33,389 nucleotides of DNA from Bacteroidota bacterium (lineage in GTDB: Bacteria; Bacteroidota; Bacteroidia; Bacteroidales; WCHB1-69): the NCBI GenBank assembly GCA_022708105.1, contig JAKIZI010000017.1, positions 1 to 33,389 of the forward strand. Direction: 5' to 3'. Below, piece by piece: positions 25,276 to 33,389 of the stretch. The notes beneath the pieces were generated by a model. That model saw nothing but the letters and a program-made list of their open reading frames with translations, was not told the origin of the DNA and did no database searches. How positions within the stretch are numbered: position 1 is the first letter of the stretch; each line of letters begins with the position of its first letter. Both the position numbers and the translations under genes were made by a program.

Positions 25276-25432
25276 TAAAAATGATTGCTGGACTCCTTTG
25301 AGTTTGCGGGTGAATTTTCAACACCCTGTTTTTAATAACCTAAACGTTTACAGCGGCTAAATAATTGCTCCAAAGTGCATAAACTTTCCGAAAATAAAAA
25401 GGATGATCATCATAATAATATGTTGGGCGTGT

Positions 25433-25537
25433 CGGCTTCGCCGCCGGCGTCCGGCTCCAAGTCCGCAGCCGGTAGTCGTGGGGGCGCAAAGCTGCAAAAG
25501 GAGCTTCCTTCGGTCGCTCTTTTGCAGCAGCGCCCCC
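25433..25537. repeat. GC-rich block with three successive hairpins
   Basis: Three inverted repeats follow one another: CGGC/GCCG (25433-25443, loop TTC), CCGGCT/AGCCGG (25451-25472), and a long imperfect stem whose arms are 25480-25504 and 25516-25537 (GGGGGCGC ... CTGCAAAA ... GAGC against its complement, with two small interruptions). The block is markedly more GC-rich than the flanking genes. It resembles an interspersed palindromic element or a structured RNA more than coding DNA; it could also be a relic of insertion. Genome-wide copy number, which would decide, cannot be seen here. Confidence 0.6.
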
Positions 25538-25705
25538 ATCGCCTCCCGTCTTTGCGGGCTTTCCACCTACCGCCTCACGCTTCGGATGGCAAAATCTTTG
25601 CGTCTTGGGGCCTTTGCGGTGATTTTTTCTACCGGGCTTTTGTCCCTGCCCGAATATTTCCATCTTGCAGGTGCTTGCTTCTTTGCCGCGGGTGCTTGCT
25701 TCAGC

Positions 25706-26104
25706 TTACATTTGGGTTGCTTCAGCTTACATTTGTGTTGCTTCAGCTTACATTTGTGTTGCTTCAGCTTACATTTGCATTGCTTCGACTTACATTTGCA
25801 TTTTCCCCCGTTACATTTGCGTTTTTACCCGTTACATTTGCGTTTTTACCCGTTACATTTGCGTTTTTACCCGTTACATTTGCATTTTCCCCCGTTACAT
25901 TTGCATTTCTACCGCTTACATTTGCATTTCTACCGCTTACATTTCTGTTCCTACCGGTTACATTTGCATTCCTACCGGTTACATTTGCATTCCTACCGGT
26001 TACATTTCTGTTCCTACCGGTTACATTTCTGTTCCTACCGGTTACATTTCTATTCCTACTGGTTACATTTGCATTCCTACTGGTTACATTTGGGTTCCTA
26101 CCGC
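25706..26104 (+). repeat. 19 tandem copies of a 21-bp unit carrying TAnnTTTG boxes
   Basis: Nineteen contiguous units, each exactly 21 bp, consensus TTACATTTGCATTCCTACCGG, with no gaps. The first 8 bases (TTACATTT) are invariant in all 19; the rest varies in blocks: units 1-4 end GCTTCRRC-like, 5-9 end CCCG, 10-11 end CCGC, 12-16 end CCGG, 17-18 end CTGG, 19 ends CCGC. Neighbouring units are most alike, as expected from slippage or unequal crossing-over. Fifteen units (1-11, 13, 14, 18, 19) contain TACATTTG, an exact Bacteroidetes -7 box reading rightward. Substitutions fall on all codon positions in every frame, so protein coding is not supported. A degraded unit follows to about 26122. Confidence 0.97.
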
Positions 26105-26534: not shown

Positions 26535-28193
26535 TTAAATTGGAGGTAATCCTAACTCATTCAAAAATTCATTGTGTTTATCAGTATTTGTCTTTATGTT
26601 TTCGTTAATTGAAGTCAATTTTTTGTTTACTTCTTTCAAGTCAATTTGAATTTCGTCTTCTGAGGTACTCACGTATCTTGAAATGTTCAGATTGAAGTCA
26701 TTCTTTTTTATTTCGTCCATTGAAACCCGACGAGAATAACGCTCTCTTTCATATCTGAATTTGTAAGTTTCTACGATATTATCTAAATGCTTTTCAGAAA
26801 GTGAATTTTGTCGCTTACCTTTTTCAAATTGTTCACTCGCATTGATAAATAATATATCGTCTTGTTTTTTGCATTTTTTCAATACTAAAATACAAACCGG
26901 AATACCTGTTGAATAAAATAAATTGGACGGCAAGCCTATTACTGTATCAATATGGTTATCTTTTAAAAGCTTTTCTCGGATGCGTGCTTCTGCGCCACCA
27001 CGGAATAAAACTCCATGAGGCAAAATAATCGCCATTGTACCATCCTCAGCTAATTGTCCTTCTGTGCCTAAAAAATGAAAACCATGTAATAGAAAAGCAA
27101 AATCCGCAGCAGACTTTGGTGCTAATCCATAACCTTTAAAACGAAAATCTTCCGCTAATGTATCGTTAGGTTCCCAACGTAAACTAAAAGGTGGATTAGC
27201 GACAATGGCATCGAATTTTATTTTTTTACTTGGATTCATTTCGTTAAAATCATCCCATTGATTCAATAAGGTATCACCGTGGAATATCTCAAACTCAGTA
27301 TCTTTCATACCATGCAGAAGCATATTCATTCGGGCAAGGTTATAGGTGGTGATATTCTTTTCTTGCCCATAGATTTTTCCGATTGTCCCTTTTCCTTTAG
27401 TTTCATTTTTCAATTGTGTACGAACATTCAGTAAAAGAGAGCCTGAGCCACAGGCAAAATCCAGCACTTTGGTCAATTTATCTTTGTACCCTTGTGTTGG
27501 GTCGTGGGAATCCAAAAGTACAATTCGGGAAAGAATGGTTGAAATTTGTTGGGGCGTATAAAATTCTCCTGCTTTTTTTCCTGAACCGGCTGCAAATTTA
27601 CCAATCAAATATTCATAAGCATCACCAAGCGTGTCGGTATCGGTAGAGAAATCTGCAATGCCTTCCGCTATTTTCCTGATAATCTTGCAAAGTTTGTCGT
27701 TTCTTTCTTTCTCAGTTTTACCCAGCTTCTCCGAATTAAGGTTAATTTCAGAGAAAAGACCTTTAAATGTAGTTCCAAATGATTCATCTTCGATGTGACG
27801 AAATCCTTCTCGAAGCGTTTTTAACAATAGATCATTTTGCCTACTTGCCAAATGAGTGATATTGCTCCACAAATATTTTGGTTTGATAACGTAATGTACT
27901 TTTTTACGCATACTGTCCTCAAACTCTGCAATATCATCCTTATTGGCTTTGTACCAGTCTTCCAATGGAGGTGGTACGGTATAATCAAATCTACTATCTT
28001 TTGAACGGCTTGGAGGATAATCTTTTCCTAATTCCTTTTTAGCTGCTTCTTCATAGTTGAAGGACAGGTACCGAAGGAAGAGAAACGAAAGCATATAATC
28101 ACGGAAATCATCCGCATTCATTACCCCTCTCAAATCATTGGCAATGTCCCAAAGTGTATCGCCTAATTTTTTATGTTGTTCTTTTTGTGTCAT
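26535..28193 (-). CDS. hsdM: Type I restriction-modification system methyltransferase subunit
   Basis: This adenine-N6 methyltransferase subunit is needed with HsdS for modification and with HsdR for restriction. It is complete at 552 residues. An N-terminal HsdM helical domain (LGDTLWDIANDLRG, about 10-130) precedes the catalytic domain: FYTPQQISTIL at 211-221, SAM-binding motif I VLDFACGSGS at 243-252, and catalytic motif IV NPPF at 333-336 in DAIVANPPFSLRW. The C-terminus has a coiled-coil-like HsdS-contact region (LKEVNKKLTSINENIK). It is the last gene of the operon, 2 bases after the anticodon nuclease candidate; many type I loci put hsdM before hsdS. Confidence 0.97.
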   Translation of the reverse strand: MTQKEQHKKLGDTLWDIANDLRGVMNADDFRDYMLSFLFLRYLSFNYEEAAKKELGKDYPPSRSKDSRFDYTVPPPLEDWYKANKDDIAEFEDSMRKKVHYVIKPKYLWSNITHLASRQNDLLLKTLREGFRHIEDESFGTTFKGLFSEINLNSEKLGKTEKERNDKLCKIIRKIAEGIADFSTDTDTLGDAYEYLIGKFAAGSGKKAGEFYTPQQISTILSRIVLLDSHDPTQGYKDKLTKVLDFACGSGSLLLNVRTQLKNETKGKGTIGKIYGQEKNITTYNLARMNMLLHGMKDTEFEIFHGDTLLNQWDDFNEMNPSKKIKFDAIVANPPFSLRWEPNDTLAEDFRFKGYGLAPKSAADFAFLLHGFHFLGTEGQLAEDGTMAIILPHGVLFRGGAEARIREKLLKDNHIDTVIGLPSNLFYSTGIPVCILVLKKCKKQDDILFINASEQFEKGKRQNSLSEKHLDNIVETYKFRYERERYSRRVSMDEIKKNDFNLNISRYVSTSEDEIQIDLKEVNKKLTSINENIKTNTDKHNEFLNELGLPPI

Positions 28194-28195
28194 TA

Positions 28196-29257
28196 TTAAT
28201 GAGTTATGAAATTATAAGTATCTTGAATTTTAGTAAAAATATCCTCAAGTAGTTCAGCATCCTTTGGATTTAAATCAGCTGGCTGTGGTCTCGCATCTTT
28301 ATGCGATAAAGAATTTACTTGATTACTTACAAATTCAAGATTTTCTTTATATCCAATTTCTTCTAAAGCTTTCTTAATACTTCCTGTCCCTAGAAAAGAT
28401 GAAATGATTTCCAAAAGTTGACGTAACATAATGAAGTGGTAGCCCATAACTTCTTTATTGGCTATGCATTCCTTTAGAATTTGCATTAAATATAAATGAT
28501 ATAGAAATACATCTTTATCGTGGTTCTTTAATTCTAATTCATCATTAAGTATGCTTAGTATATTGCGTTTAGTGTTGTTTTTATGAGTGCTATTCATCAA
28601 CCTATCCGACAATATTGAGAATAATCCAATATGATGAGTTGTAATAATTATTCTTTTTTCTGACTTTGAAGCTATTTTTTCATCAATTAACTTAATTATT
28701 GAGTTGGCAGTAATGAATAAATTATGGTCGTCCATACTAGATACAGGGTCATCTATGAAAAAATGAGCATCTTGTTCTCCTGTCCAAGCGTCAGCCTCAA
28801 ATAATGCTAGAAAAAAGCACCAAATAAAAATTCTTTCTTCACCTCTAGAAATTTTTATATTACTTACTCCATCTCTTGAAAAGCGAATAGCATCAATCCC
28901 AATCTCTGGGTTGGCATTAATATCAAACTCATAAGTATATCTAGGTAAATAGGGAGAAAGCTTTTCTTCTAATAAGTCGGGGTTTTCAATTATAGAACTG
29001 AAATACGGATTTAAACTACTTTTTAATACTTCAAGTTTCATATCTTCATTTCCATTCTCCTCGTCATTATCCCATCTAAACAAATCTTCACTATAAGCAT
29101 TATAATAAACTCCCGTATGCTTATCATCTTCTCCTTTTGTTATGTTTTTATATTCGACTGATAGTTTCGTCTTTCCTGTTGAGTTAAATGCATAAATCAA
29201 CATTATCGGCTGCTTACTAGCTTTTAATCGTTTTGCTATTTCATTTATTGTTGCCAT
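28196..29257 (-). CDS. prrC: PrrC-type anticodon nuclease candidate (ABC-ATPase plus nuclease domain)
   Basis: PrrC of E. coli is a latent tRNA-Lys anticodon nuclease silenced by its type Ic restriction enzyme and released when a phage inhibits restriction. This 353-residue protein has the same plan. Residues 1 to about 215 form an ABC-type ATPase: Walker A-like LIYAFNSTGKTKLS at about 20-33, signature ISRGEERIFIWCFFLALFE at 136-154, Walker B FFIDDPVSSMDD at 166-177, and H-loop IITTHHIGLF. The C-terminal part shows Arg279-x3-Glu283 (LRQLLEI) and His319 (NSLSHK), matching the Arg-Glu-His catalytic triad and spacing of PrrC (320, 324, 356). It lies between hsdS and hsdM, 3 and 2 bases away. tRNA target unknown. 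A non-nuclease AAA protein remains possible. Confidence 0.82.
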   Translation of the reverse strand: MATINEIAKRLKASKQPIMLIYAFNSTGKTKLSVEYKNITKGEDDKHTGVYYNAYSEDLFRWDNDEENGNEDMKLEVLKSSLNPYFSSIIENPDLLEEKLSPYLPRYTYEFDINANPEIGIDAIRFSRDGVSNIKISRGEERIFIWCFFLALFEADAWTGEQDAHFFIDDPVSSMDDHNLFITANSIIKLIDEKIASKSEKRIIITTHHIGLFSILSDRLMNSTHKNNTKRNILSILNDELELKNHDKDVFLYHLYLMQILKECIANKEVMGYHFIMLRQLLEIISSFLGTGSIKKALEEIGYKENLEFVSNQVNSLSHKDARPQPADLNPKDAELLEDIFTKIQDTYNFITH

Positions 29258-29260
29258 ATT

Positions 29261-30463
29261 CTAATTCTCAGTTTTCGGAAACAAACCCTGCATCAATCCC
29301 TTTTTGTGCTGCTTCAATCGTTCTATTTTCTTCGCTTGTGCTGTAATGAGTTCATCTAAAGCAGAAAGACAAGAAGCGATTTTTTGTTGTTCTTTGGGAT
29401 TCTTAGGGTATAGTATTATAGAATCTTCCAAATCACTTTTTGAAAAGCCTTTAATAGATGTCCCTTGACTTAAAGATTCCAACGCATTTTTATTAGCTGA
29501 ATAATAATACGCAACAAATAAATTTAAAACTTCTGCTGGAATGAAACTTGTAAAATCTTGGCTTGTGCAAAGCTCTTCATTATTGATTGCCAATTTCCCT
29601 ACACCAACTCTAGACACAAATAGAATACTTCCTTTAGGAATTATCTTGGTTGCTGATTCAATAATTGCATTTTCATTTATGTATTGAGAGATAGAAATAT
29701 TATGAATATCATCTTCCTTAATATCCGAACTTGAAATCCACGGGATATTCCCAATCCAGTAATCATCATTCGACCTGCTTGGTGTTCCACCTCCTAAAAA
29801 ATGCCCTAAGTCACCCAATCTCTTTTTTACCCAATCTTCGTCTTCCTCAAACTCCTTAAACCTCAACTTCGGAACTTTTTCACCCTCTTGCGGAAAAAGG
29901 TTTTGCATCAAGCCTTTTTTGTGGTCTTTGAGTAAATCCAACTTTTGGCTGTGTTCTTTAATCAAATCGTCTAAAGATGAAAGGCAGGAGGCGATTTTTT
30001 GTTGTTCAGGAAGAAAATTAGAAATTACAAATTTAAAATTACGAATTGAATTTTGTTGGATGTTTGGTAGACCAGAGCCTACACGTAATCTCATTATATC
30101 TTCTTCATTAAATTTTAAAGCTTGATAGAGATACGACTTATCAATTCTATGGTTAACTACTAATTTATAGCAATGTCCCCCAAGCCAAAACTTAGAAGTC
30201 ATATAGTTTATATAGCCACAAGAATTACCTCCCTCACTAATCGTGATGGTGTTTTCGTTGGTGTTAAATTTATCAGTATAACCAGAAGGGTTTATTCCTC
30301 CATTTTGGCAAGGATATTTTCCTGTTTCTGTTAATTCAATTCTATTTAATTGTTCACCTTTTACAATTTGACTTAAGTAACCCAATGTAACTTCTTTCCA
30401 TTCCCCCTCATTTTTAAACTCAGGAAAACGTATTTCGGGTATTAGTTTTTGTCTGTTACTCAT
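29261..30463 (-). CDS. hsdS: Type I restriction-modification specificity subunit
   Basis: This subunit chooses the bipartite DNA target for HsdM and HsdR. The 400 residues show the classic duplicated plan: target-recognition domain 1 (about 20-150), conserved helical spacer 1 (EQQKIASCLSSLDDLI to KKGLMQNLFP, about 154-190), target-recognition domain 2 (about 210-350; LGGGTPSRSNDDYW, IPWISSSDI), and conserved spacer 2 (EQQKIASCLSALDELI to KKGLMQGLFP). The spacers are nearly identical in protein and close in DNA. It is intact. The start codon immediately follows the stop of the KilA-N gene (TAAATG). Confidence 0.97.
   Translation of the reverse strand: MSNRQKLIPEIRFPEFKNEGEWKEVTLGYLSQIVKGEQLNRIELTETGKYPCQNGGINPSGYTDKFNTNENTITISEGGNSCGYINYMTSKFWLGGHCYKLVVNHRIDKSYLYQALKFNEEDIMRLRVGSGLPNIQQNSIRNFKFVISNFLPEQQKIASCLSSLDDLIKEHSQKLDLLKDHKKGLMQNLFPQEGEKVPKLRFKEFEEDEDWVKKRLGDLGHFLGGGTPSRSNDDYWIGNIPWISSSDIKEDDIHNISISQYINENAIIESATKIIPKGSILFVSRVGVGKLAINNEELCTSQDFTSFIPAEVLNLFVAYYYSANKNALESLSQGTSIKGFSKSDLEDSIILYPKNPKEQQKIASCLSALDELITAQAKKIERLKQHKKGLMQGLFPKTEN
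29364..29392 (-). repeat. hsdS spacer repeat, distal copy
   Basis: Part of conserved spacer 2 of hsdS. This 29-base stretch matches 29979-30007 at 26 of 29 positions in direct orientation; the protein it encodes includes EQQKIASCLS. Such repeats can serve as recombination points that exchange target-recognition domains. Confidence 0.8.
29979..30007 (-). repeat. hsdS spacer repeat, proximal copy
   Basis: Part of conserved spacer 1 of hsdS, matching the copy at 29364-29392 with three differences. The distance between copies, 615 bases, equals a recognition domain plus spacer, so exchange between copies would delete one domain or shuffle domains with another hsdS. Confidence 0.8.
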
Positions 30464-31276
30464 TTACTTTAGGAGTTTTCTGTTTTCCACCTCGTGCAAT
30501 ACCTTCATTTGCTGAATAGCAATTTGGTTTAGTTTTATTAACCGCTCGGGTTGTGGCATATTTTCGTTTATGAAAACTGAATTGAGGTTTTCCATATTGG
30601 CGAGGCAAATCAACTCGTTAATGGTGGCATAATCGCGTATGTTACCTTTTAAGTCGGGGTTTGCATCGCGCCACTGTTTGGCTGTAATTCCAAACATAGC
30701 CACGTTGAGCACATCGGCTTCACTGGCATAAATAACGTTTGTTTGTGTAACGGTAAGTTCTGTCGGAACCAGATTCTTTTTTATGGCATCGGTGTGAATG
30801 TGGTAATTGAGTTTTGCCAGTTCACGTTTGGCAGTCCATCCAAGTAGTTTTTGTTCGTCTTCTTTGAGGCGCTGAAACTCAGTAATCAGGTACATTTTAA
30901 AAGGTACACTAATGGCAGAGCCAAACTCAAAGGCTATGTCTTTATGGGCATAAGTACCTCCATATTTTCCCTTTCTTACTATTATCCCGATGGCATTTGT
31001 TGTTTCAATCCATTCAGTTGCACTAAGCACAAAACTTGGCATACCTGCTTGCATTTTAAAGTGGTCAGATTCCACCACTTTAAAATTGGGATTATTAATT
31101 TGTTCCCAAACACTGAGAAATTCAATAGCATAACGTGTCCTAAGCCAATTTTTGATAATATCGGCAGCCCGACTTTCGCTTTCCTTGGCATTAGCCATAT
31201 CAGTAAGGGATATGTAGTCTTTCTCATCGATAGACAAGACGGTTATTTCTGTGTTCTCTACTTTAATTTTTGCCAT
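30464..31276 (-). CDS. KilA-N domain protein inside the restriction operon
   Basis: A 270-residue protein with a KilA-N DNA-binding domain at about 17-135: YISLTDMANA, IIKNWLRTRYAIEFLSVWEQ, TNAIGIIVRKGKYGGTYAHKDIAFEFGSAIS and FKMYLITEFQRLKE. The KilA-N fold occurs in phage and viral antirepressor-like proteins. The C-terminal half (ELTVTQTNVIYASEADVLN..., ITAKQWRDANPDLKGN) recurs in bacterial proteins of this type but has no known role. It is 11 bases after hsdR and abuts hsdS, so it belongs to the operon. I infer a regulator or accessory DNA-binding subunit of the system, possibly connected with control of the neighbouring nuclease; nothing in the sequence proves this. Confidence 0.88.
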   Translation of the reverse strand: MAKIKVENTEITVLSIDEKDYISLTDMANAKESESRAADIIKNWLRTRYAIEFLSVWEQINNPNFKVVESDHFKMQAGMPSFVLSATEWIETTNAIGIIVRKGKYGGTYAHKDIAFEFGSAISVPFKMYLITEFQRLKEDEQKLLGWTAKRELAKLNYHIHTDAIKKNLVPTELTVTQTNVIYASEADVLNVAMFGITAKQWRDANPDLKGNIRDYATINELICLANMENLNSVFINENMPQPERLIKLNQIAIQQMKVLHEVENRKLLK

Positions 31277-31287
31277 TTTATCAAAAT

Positions 31288-33389
31288 TTACTCATACGCT
31301 GCTAATCCTGAAATTTCACGCCCTTGGGCCAGTTTTTTTAATTGTGGAACTAAATCCTCCATTAACGCTAATTCTTTTGTTCTGCGTTCTTTCCAACTCA
31401 AATCCAACGGTGCTAAAAGGTCAGTCAATTTTTCACCATCAAAAATCATTCGGCTCATAATCTTCTCAATAAACTTTTTCAGGTCAGCCGTTTGCAAGCC
31501 GTGTTTGTTGGCAATAGCGGCTATCTCCTTATTGTATTTATTGTCCTTAAATTGAACTAAATTGAGTTTTAATTCTTCAACTGTTTGACCTATTGACCAA
31601 TCAACTTGCTCAATAAACTCTGCTAAATCTTCATCATCCATTAAATTAGAGTTAGATTTCAACAAGTTAATTATTTGCAGCTTGGTCATTATTTGCTTGG
31701 CAGGTTTCTTTTGCGTGCTATCGGCAATCAAATTCATTATGTAATCATAATCAATCACGGCAGAAGCAAACAATACAAATTCAAAATCAAGTTGTTGAAT
31801 TTCGGGTAGTGCATTTTCGCCTTCTTTTTGCTGTATTTCTCGTAATTGCTTGGCTGTTTCTATATACGAACTGCGGAACTCCTGCAAGGTGTCATCAGGC
31901 AAAATAGCTTTGATTTTCGCCTTTTGTTCTTCGTCCAAATCGGTGTACTGGTCAAGCTGTGTTTTGAGTCGTTGTACTTCCTTAAAGTTTTGTACAAAAG
32001 AAATTCTTGCGGCATCACCCTTCAAATTGTAAACTTCTTGTGGTTCGTTTACCAAATCATGCTCCTGCATAAACAAGCCTAATTTCTCAACTGCTTCTTT
32101 GTACTTGTCAATCATTACAGGTGCCGGGTCAACCAACCAAATTTCTCTGGCTTTACCGTTGTCCTCACCTGAGAACAATGCAATTGCTTGGTTAACAACT
32201 TCCTGTTGTGAACGGAAATCTAAAATATTACCATAAGGTTTTGTGTCGTTTAATACCCGATTAGTTCTTGAAAATGCCTGAATCAATCCGTGGTATTTCA
32301 GGTTTTTGTCCACATACAAAGTATTGAGGTATTTGCTGTCAAATCCTGTAAGCAACATATCTACCACTATGGTAATGTCAATCTTGTTTTCGTGCGGATA
32401 ATCTTTGTTGCTGTATTGTTGGTCTTTGATGCGTCTTTGCACATCTTGATAATACAAATCAAATTCGTTGATGCTATGATTGGTTTTAAATTTCTTATTG
32501 TAATCATCAATAATTTCAGTCAATGCTTTTTTCTTCTCTTCTGGATTTTGTTTGTTATCCTCACGTTCTTGTGTTAAATCTTCCTGCAATTGCTTGATAT
32601 CAGCCGCATTTTTTTGACTTTGCTGGTCTCCTTGTTTTGCAATGAGTTGTGATGGTGGCGAAAACACACAAGCAATGTTTAATGGAACATATTCGGGATT
32701 TTCTGTTTGTTTTTTCTTTTGTAATTCTTTGAAAAGCTGATAATATTCAATGGCATTATTTATAGAAGCCGTAGCCAAAACAGCATTGAATTTTCTTGAA
32801 TTTGTGGCTGCATTGTGTTTGCTTAAAATGGCTTCAACAACAGCCTGGCGTGAAATTACTTCTCCGGGTTTTTGGTTTTTATTTCCCTTGAAATAATCTA
32901 CGTGAAAACGCAATACGTTTTCATCATCAATAGCGTGGGTAATGGTATAAGCATGTAGTTTTTGTTGGAAAATATCTTCTGTAGTTTTATAAGAGGCGTA
33001 TTCACCTTCCCTAATGCTGTAAGTGGCATTTTCATCAAAAATAGGCGTACCCGTAAAACCAAATAATTGGGCATTTGGGAAAAACTCTTTAATCGCTTGG
33101 TGATTATCGCCAAACTGCGAGCGGTGGCACTCGTCAAAAATAAAAACAACACGTTTATCTTTTAATGGTTTTAGTCGCTCCTTGTAAGTTTGAACTCCTT
33201 TTTTAGCTTTCTTTTTATTTCGGATGCTGTTTTCATCCAATGCCAAGCCTAATTTTTGAATAGTGGTAACTATTACTTTGTCAGCATAATCCGTAGAGAG
33301 CAAACGCCTTACTAATGTTTCAGTATTGGTGTTTTCTTCTACACTCCCTTCCTGAAATTTATTGAACTCCTCTCTGGTTTGTCGGTCAA
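31288..33389 (-). CDS. hsdR: Type I restriction endonuclease subunit R (5' end outside window)
   Basis: This is the ATP-dependent translocase and nuclease subunit. The frame is open to the right edge, where it reads DRQTREEFNKFQEGSVEE, so about 700 C-terminal residues are visible and the N-terminal nuclease domain with Walker A (roughly 300 residues) lies beyond. Helicase motifs seen in order: TTIQKLGL (Ia region), Walker B/DEAD-box VFIFDECHRSQFG, motif III FGFTGTPIF, motif V DMLLTGFDSKYLNTLYVDK and motif VI LIQAFSRTNRV, followed by the C-terminal helical region (LMEDLVPQLKKLAQG). The TTG near 33303 is not the start, because coding continues upstream. It is the first gene of the operon read here; its promoter is outside. 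Confidence 0.97.
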   Translation of the reverse strand, partial: DRQTREEFNKFQEGSVEENTNTETLVRRLLSTDYADKVIVTTIQKLGLALDENSIRNKKKAKKGVQTYKERLKPLKDKRVVFIFDECHRSQFGDNHQAIKEFFPNAQLFGFTGTPIFDENATYSIREGEYASYKTTEDIFQQKLHAYTITHAIDDENVLRFHVDYFKGNKNQKPGEVISRQAVVEAILSKHNAATNSRKFNAVLATASINNAIEYYQLFKELQKKKQTENPEYVPLNIACVFSPPSQLIAKQGDQQSQKNAADIKQLQEDLTQEREDNKQNPEEKKKALTEIIDDYNKKFKTNHSINEFDLYYQDVQRRIKDQQYSNKDYPHENKIDITIVVDMLLTGFDSKYLNTLYVDKNLKYHGLIQAFSRTNRVLNDTKPYGNILDFRSQQEVVNQAIALFSGEDNGKAREIWLVDPAPVMIDKYKEAVEKLGLFMQEHDLVNEPQEVYNLKGDAARISFVQNFKEVQRLKTQLDQYTDLDEEQKAKIKAILPDDTLQEFRSSYIETAKQLREIQQKEGENALPEIQQLDFEFVLFASAVIDYDYIMNLIADSTQKKPAKQIMTKLQIINLLKSNSNLMDDEDLAEFIEQVDWSIGQTVEELKLNLVQFKDNKYNKEIAAIANKHGLQTADLKKFIEKIMSRMIFDGEKLTDLLAPLDLSWKERRTKELALMEDLVPQLKKLAQGREISGLAAYE

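Follow-up and report, generated by a model that had tools for sequence, protein, structure and literature searches.

The DNA analysed here, referred to as the window, is a 33,389-nucleotide stretch of a Bacteroidota genome (positions 1-33389) that appears to span a whole contig. On its reverse strand lies an operon in the order hsdR, a KilA-N gene, hsdS, prrC and hsdM, in which the homologue of the E. coli anticodon nuclease gene prrC is separated by 3 bases from hsdS and by 2 bases from hsdM (Table 1). PrrC is the textbook case of a defence kept in reserve behind a restriction enzyme. A first-pass annotation of the letters alone had placed a PrrC-like anticodon nuclease, with such 2-3 base gaps, inside a type I restriction operon; the open reading frame is indeed intact, and its motifs were found on re-translation at the positions that had been given for them. 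The product of positions 28196-29257 is, as judged from its sequence, an intact and ordinary member of the PrrC family.

Table 1. Genes of the operon, and domains and motifs of the PrrC homologue, in window coordinates
Feature	Coordinates	Strand	Evidence
prrC homologue, 353 amino acids	28196..29257	(-)	intact open reading frame; PADLOC PrrC match E=9e-97
ABC-ATPase head, Rad50/SMC kind, residues 1-252	28502..29257	(-)	
Walker A AFNSTGKT, residues 23-30	29168..29191	(-)	re-translated coordinates
conserved block NAYSEDLFRWDND, residues 53-65	29063..29101	(-)	
ABC signature ISRGEE, residues 136-141	28835..28852	(-)	
Walker B / D-loop FFIDDPVSSMDD, residues 166-177	28727..28762	(-)	
His208, switch ("linchpin") histidine	28634..28636	(-)	invariant in 106/106 PrrC rows
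residues 244-254 KNHDKDVFLYH, aligned to E. coli PrrC tRNA-contact stretch 284-294	28496..28528	(-)	
all-helical C-terminal domain, residues 253-353	28199..28501	(-)	
triad Arg279	28421..28423	(-)	106/106 rows
triad Glu283	28409..28411	(-)	106/106 rows
triad His319	28301..28303	(-)	106/106 rows
hsdM, 552 amino acids, NPPF at residue 333	26535..28193	(-)	TIGR00497 E=4e-121, above cut-off
hsdS, 400 amino acids, two Methylase_S stretches	29261..30463	(-)	
KilA-N protein, 270 amino acids, accessory gene between hsdR and hsdS	30464..31276	(-)	Pfam KilA-N E=7e-19; PADLOC PDC-S22 E=1e-126
hsdR, 699 amino acids present, runs off window end (33387)	31288..33387	(-)	EcoR124_C E=1.5e-59

The protein carries the ATPase elements of PrrC, from Walker A and the ABC signature to the Walker B/D-loop and the linchpin histidine, together with the Arg-x3-Glu...His triad. 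In a profile search the PADLOC PrrC model PDLC02360 was matched over residues 2-351 (model positions 19-347 of 372), and the same model is also matched by E. coli PrrC. AAA_13 was the sole Pfam family above cut-off (E=1e-18), and NCBIfam gave no match for the protein. Sequence relatives at E<=1e-5 numbered 3409 among 5128 candidates; when 50,697 phage records were searched by tblastn with a threshold of E<=1e-3, the PrrC homologue had no match.

Conservation was followed in a comparison set of 105 loci giving 106 PrrC rows, the extra row being the second prrC of locus L095. Besides the window itself, the set holds 6 plasmid loci (fetched out of 114 records with a match), 18 Bacteroidota loci found by profile search (22 fetched, of which L049, L053, L054 and L057 were dropped as duplicates of named loci) and 80 loci from named genomes, the best 80 of at least 562 relatives. 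The named-genome loci were recruited by two peptide patterns, the P-loop and the block at residues 53-65, with the window protein as confirming sequence; the conservation of those two motifs is therefore partly by construction, while the triad was in neither pattern. Start codons were guessed by a script, and the 15 of 106 rows without a match to its P-loop expression were left running from stop to stop.

The counterparts of Arg279, Glu283 and His319 are invariant in all 106 homologues. It is highly improbable, therefore, that the protein has lost its catalytic activity and serves the restriction enzyme as a regulatory ATPase subunit; nothing except low overall identity speaks for such a role, and the invariance of the three residues, together with the intact reading frame, speaks against it. 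A degenerate or dead nuclease was rejected on the invariant triad. Asn25, Gly28, Lys29 and Thr30 of Walker A are likewise invariant (106/106). The block at residues 53-65, NA(Y/F)(S/T)EDLF.W.ND, is conserved among the rows as one of the recruiting patterns; a "PrrC box" of 15 residues has been described in the N-terminal domain of PrrC (PMC2610378, PMC3014915), and the block may correspond to it.

The C-terminal domain (residues 253-353) is likely to be a HEPN-type RNase. At the position of the HEPN Rx4-6H motif it carries Asn315-x3-His319, and the conserved Arg279 is on an earlier helix. Sequence comparison with solved structures gave no match for the whole protein, nor for a profile of the C-terminal domain, and whole-protein profiles gave none below E=0.001, coming closest with Rad50 in its Walker B region (5da9_A, E=0.0016 and 0.08). 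PrrC and RloC are missing from the fold lists, which is no evidence against either. E. coli PrrC itself showed weak matches to solved structures; the best, to 9hxn_A (E=0.027), covers its triad region, residues 290-356. 9hxn_A is an antiviral defence protein named Ec1Ap, and it may share a nuclease domain with E. coli PrrC.

The surrounding genes bear out the earlier description of a type I restriction operon, with HsdM above the cut-off of its family model and an EcoR124_C domain in HsdR. EcoR124I is a type Ic enzyme (PMC3014915), and the EcoR124_C match thus indicates that the prrC homologue sits in an operon that is, from its gene content, type IC-like. HsdR scored 203 bits against TIGR00348 (cut-off 285), as expected since it is a fragment. 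Aligned with a Fluviicola homologue it covers residues 309-1000 at 85% identity, and a search of the rest of its own assembly, which is 76% complete and in 274 contigs, did not recover the 308 residues that precede them. A close relative of the operon, L060 from a Fluviicola metagenome-assembled genome, has a prrC product 88% identical to that of the window and an hsdR frame of 1000 amino acids. In the gap downstream of hsdM there is a 19-copy tandem array of a 21-base unit (25706-26103, 89% match), adjoined by a G+C-rich stretch at about 25430-25690; a 25-base pattern modelled loosely on the repeat had no match in the genome, a result without weight because the pattern does not reproduce the unit exactly.

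The placement of prrC is very regular across the comparison set. It is directly behind hsdS in 102 of the 105 loci, the three exceptions having upstream another prrC (L095), an hsdM match (L043) or no recognised gene (L136), and the gene that follows is hsdM in 97 loci and hsdR in the other 8. The script placed both ends in 87 loci, and in 84 of them the hsdS stop and the prrC start are at most 30 bases apart (median +2). Since the loci were not picked by neighbourhood, this linkage of hsdS and prrC is far beyond chance.

These data also bear on the idea that the protein is an RloC-type nuclease (Rad50-like, with a zinc hook) or another AAA_13 protein that stands in the operon by chance. The AAA_13 match and the Rad50-like head would fit, and RloC shares with the window protein the ABC head and the triad in the same order. 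RloC proteins, however, have 658-897 amino acids, a zinc-hook coiled coil and rare linkage to restriction genes, as described in PMC2610378, whereas the window protein lacks a zinc-hook or coiled-coil insert, has cysteines only at 147 and 264 with no CxxC motif, matches the PADLOC PrrC model at full length and belongs to a family with hsdM or hsdR as the next gene in 105/105 loci. RloC identity was rejected on size and cysteines, and the wider idea is extremely improbable.

The gap between hsdR and hsdS, in which the KilA-N gene lies, is a variable slot in the related loci. KilA-N (PADLOC PDC-S22) was recognised there only in the window and in L119 among the 105 loci. Ten slot proteins from nine other loci were RhuM, Bro-N (two), PDDEXK_3, YhcG/DUF1016 (two), GIY-YIG, AAA_21, SLFN_AlbA_2 and HATPase_c; TrlF adjoins AlbA in the slot. 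Both genes were recognised in 90 loci, and in 25 of these the gap measures at least 300 bases; this count is an upper bound, since in some cases (e.g. L006) the end of hsdR is broken or was overlooked.

A maximum-likelihood tree of the 106 rows (support given as ultrafast bootstrap/SH-aLRT, the approximate likelihood ratio test; midpoint root for drawing only; no RloC row) separates three branches, with support of 100/100, 100/99 and 100/100. Branch A has 8 rows, includes E. coli PrrC and has the order hsdM-hsdS-prrC-hsdR. The 11 rows of branch B (support 100/99) include Klebsiella plasmid proteins and have the order hsdR-hsdS-prrC-hsdM, which is shared by the 87 rows of branch C, where the window protein falls. 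Hosts of branch C are Bacteroidota, Pseudomonadota, Bacillota, Spirochaetota, Cyanobacteriota, Campylobacterota and others. The branch sizes are not prevalences, because recruitment used two patterns with the window protein confirming. In L095, from a Halomonas metagenome-assembled genome, a branch C copy and then a branch B copy of prrC stand in tandem between hsdS and hsdM, possibly a double anticodon nuclease.

The reference for branch A, QMN83571.1 (locus L003), was identified as E. coli PrrC by the published landmarks Arg320, Glu324, His356, Asp287 and stretch 284-294 (PMC2610378, PMC3014915). The window protein is 32% identical to it, resembles it in ATPase motifs, triad and PADLOC model, and is likewise encoded behind hsdS within a type IC-like operon, whereas its gene order is hsdR-hsdS-prrC-hsdM rather than the hsdM-hsdS-prrC-hsdR of the E. 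coli EcoprrI type IC locus. The contrasts drawn by the first-pass annotation are accurate as regards E. coli PrrC, which has 396 residues, AFNGTGKT as P-loop and a Glu-His distance of 32. In the alignment, E. coli PrrC has insertions on either side of the P-loop and ahead of Walker B that are absent from the window protein and account for most of its 43-residue shortfall; the P-loop of the window protein reads A-x-x-S instead of A-x-x-G.

It is clear, however, that none of these three contrasts sets the protein apart, since the family ranges include each of them. Published PrrC lengths are 341-416 residues (PMC2610378), and those of the 106 rows, with script-guessed starts, are 349-416. Position 26 of the P-loop is Ala in 39 rows, Gly in 38, Ser in 27 and Thr in 2; Gly, which had been called usual, is so in branches A and B (19/19) but not in branch C (19/87) or in the set as a whole. 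The Glu-His distance is 32 in 7 rows, 33 in 7, 35 in 69, 36 in 14 and 37 in 9. An unusual length, P-loop or triad spacing was accordingly rejected, and the suggestion that the tRNA chosen or the trigger may differ on account of length, Ser26 and a spacing of 36 is not supported.

The tRNA-contact stretch, which is branch-specific, gives a better reason to consider a different substrate. In E. coli PrrC residues 284-294 are KYGDSNKSFSY, as seen in the 396-amino acid E. coli protein. The 11-residue peptide 284-294 of E. coli PrrC cross-links to analogues of the tRNA-Lys anticodon stem-loop, and a review gives the variation of this sequence as a reason why PrrC substrates may differ (both PMC3014915). 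In branch A the aligned stretch is GDSN.SFSYH in 8/8 rows; branch B has Thr249-Pro250 in 11/11; branch C has Val250 in 78, Leu252 in 79 and Asp249 in 47 of 87. The E. coli letters are absent from residues 244-254 of the window protein, and branch C has a consensus of its own, in a part of the alignment that is gapped. His254 is invariant in all 106 rows.

Thus the window protein could be a PrrC-type anticodon nuclease of a branch that, its recognition stretch having diverged, cuts another or a differently modified tRNA. Three well-supported branches that differ in consensus immediately ahead of the invariant His254 would fit this, as would the link made in the review between that varying sequence and possible substrate variation. 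Against it stand the gaps in the alignment at this very stretch and the K. quasipneumoniae protein PrrC170, which shares 35% identity with E. coli PrrC and still targets tRNA-Lys (PMC11555353); furthermore, GDSN is likewise missing from a K. quasipneumoniae plasmid homologue, a probable stand-in for PrrC170 with 33% identity to E. coli PrrC. On balance we regard a different tRNA as unlikely, and tRNA-Lys as the expected substrate. The broader proposal, that branch C is a third major cross-phylum PrrC branch with its own recognition stretch (KDVFLYH-like), a relaxed P-loop (Ala, Ser, Gly or Thr as its fourth residue), a tRNA other than tRNA-Lys and another trigger, is speculative and rather doubtful as a whole.

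PrrC170 is encoded in the order HsdR, HsdS, PrrC, HsdM; it blocks phages T1 and T7 and arrests growth, according to the sections of PMC11555353 that describe it. It probably belongs to branch B; if so, the E. coli letters of the contact stretch are not needed for tRNA-Lys. The window protein shares with PrrC170, and with its probable plasmid kin in L002 (Klebsiella, 371 amino acids), the gene order, the triad and a similar size, whereas it is 31% identical to the L002 protein, falls in a separate branch and has KilA-N as accessory gene where L002 has TrlF and AlbA. A statement in PMC9296519 counts none of the predicted HEPN-restriction couples as tested beyond E. coli as of 2022, and PMC3014915 mentions H. 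influenzae and S. mutans PrrC as active; in a search with E. coli PrrC neither of the latter two came within the top 120 of 8000 scored. Our literature search found no experimentally tested member of branch C.

Within the phylum, PrrC was found at E<=1e-20 in 23 of 395 genomes, that of the window included, whereas none of the 23 further genomes from its own genus or family carries it. Such patchy presence is what a mobile restriction locus would be expected to show. It would also suit an operon that is mainly an addiction module, in which HsdM/HsdS serve as antitoxin and loss of the operon, not inhibition by phage, frees the nuclease; the tight coupling of prrC to hsdS and the naming of the PrrC170 set as a toxin-antitoxin system in PMC11555353 agree with this. 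The tested homologues, however, act against phages, and a mainly addictive function appears improbable; the two roles are compatible.

We return to defence, and consider it probable, by analogy with tested homologues, that this PrrC-family protein is kept silent by its binding to the operon's type I enzyme and, upon inhibition of that enzyme by phage, cuts the anticodon loop of a tRNA, most likely tRNA-Lys. The present analysis contributes the family, the ATPase motifs, the invariant triad, a fold prediction for the ATPase head and the tight placement behind hsdS within an operon of type IC-like make-up; the course of events may be sketched from E. coli PrrC and PrrC170. The Hsd complex would hold the nuclease latent until an anti-restriction protein or a nucleotide signal, with hydrolysis of nucleoside triphosphate, frees it. 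Once free, it would cut its tRNA, and the cut would halt translation before the phage could mature. The second-line defence proposed in the first-pass annotation is the best inference, on homology. The tRNA matches listed for the assembly, 30 in number, include one tRNA-Lys, with anticodon CUU; a tRNA-Lys UUU gene was not found in this incomplete assembly.

The finding extends the coupling of prrC to restriction, through branch C, across many phyla, with prrC nearly always directly behind hsdS, and the tested PrrC members that could be placed lie outside this branch. If branch C does cut other tRNAs, phages would have a wider range of tRNA targets to guard, and its members would be new site-specific tRNases.
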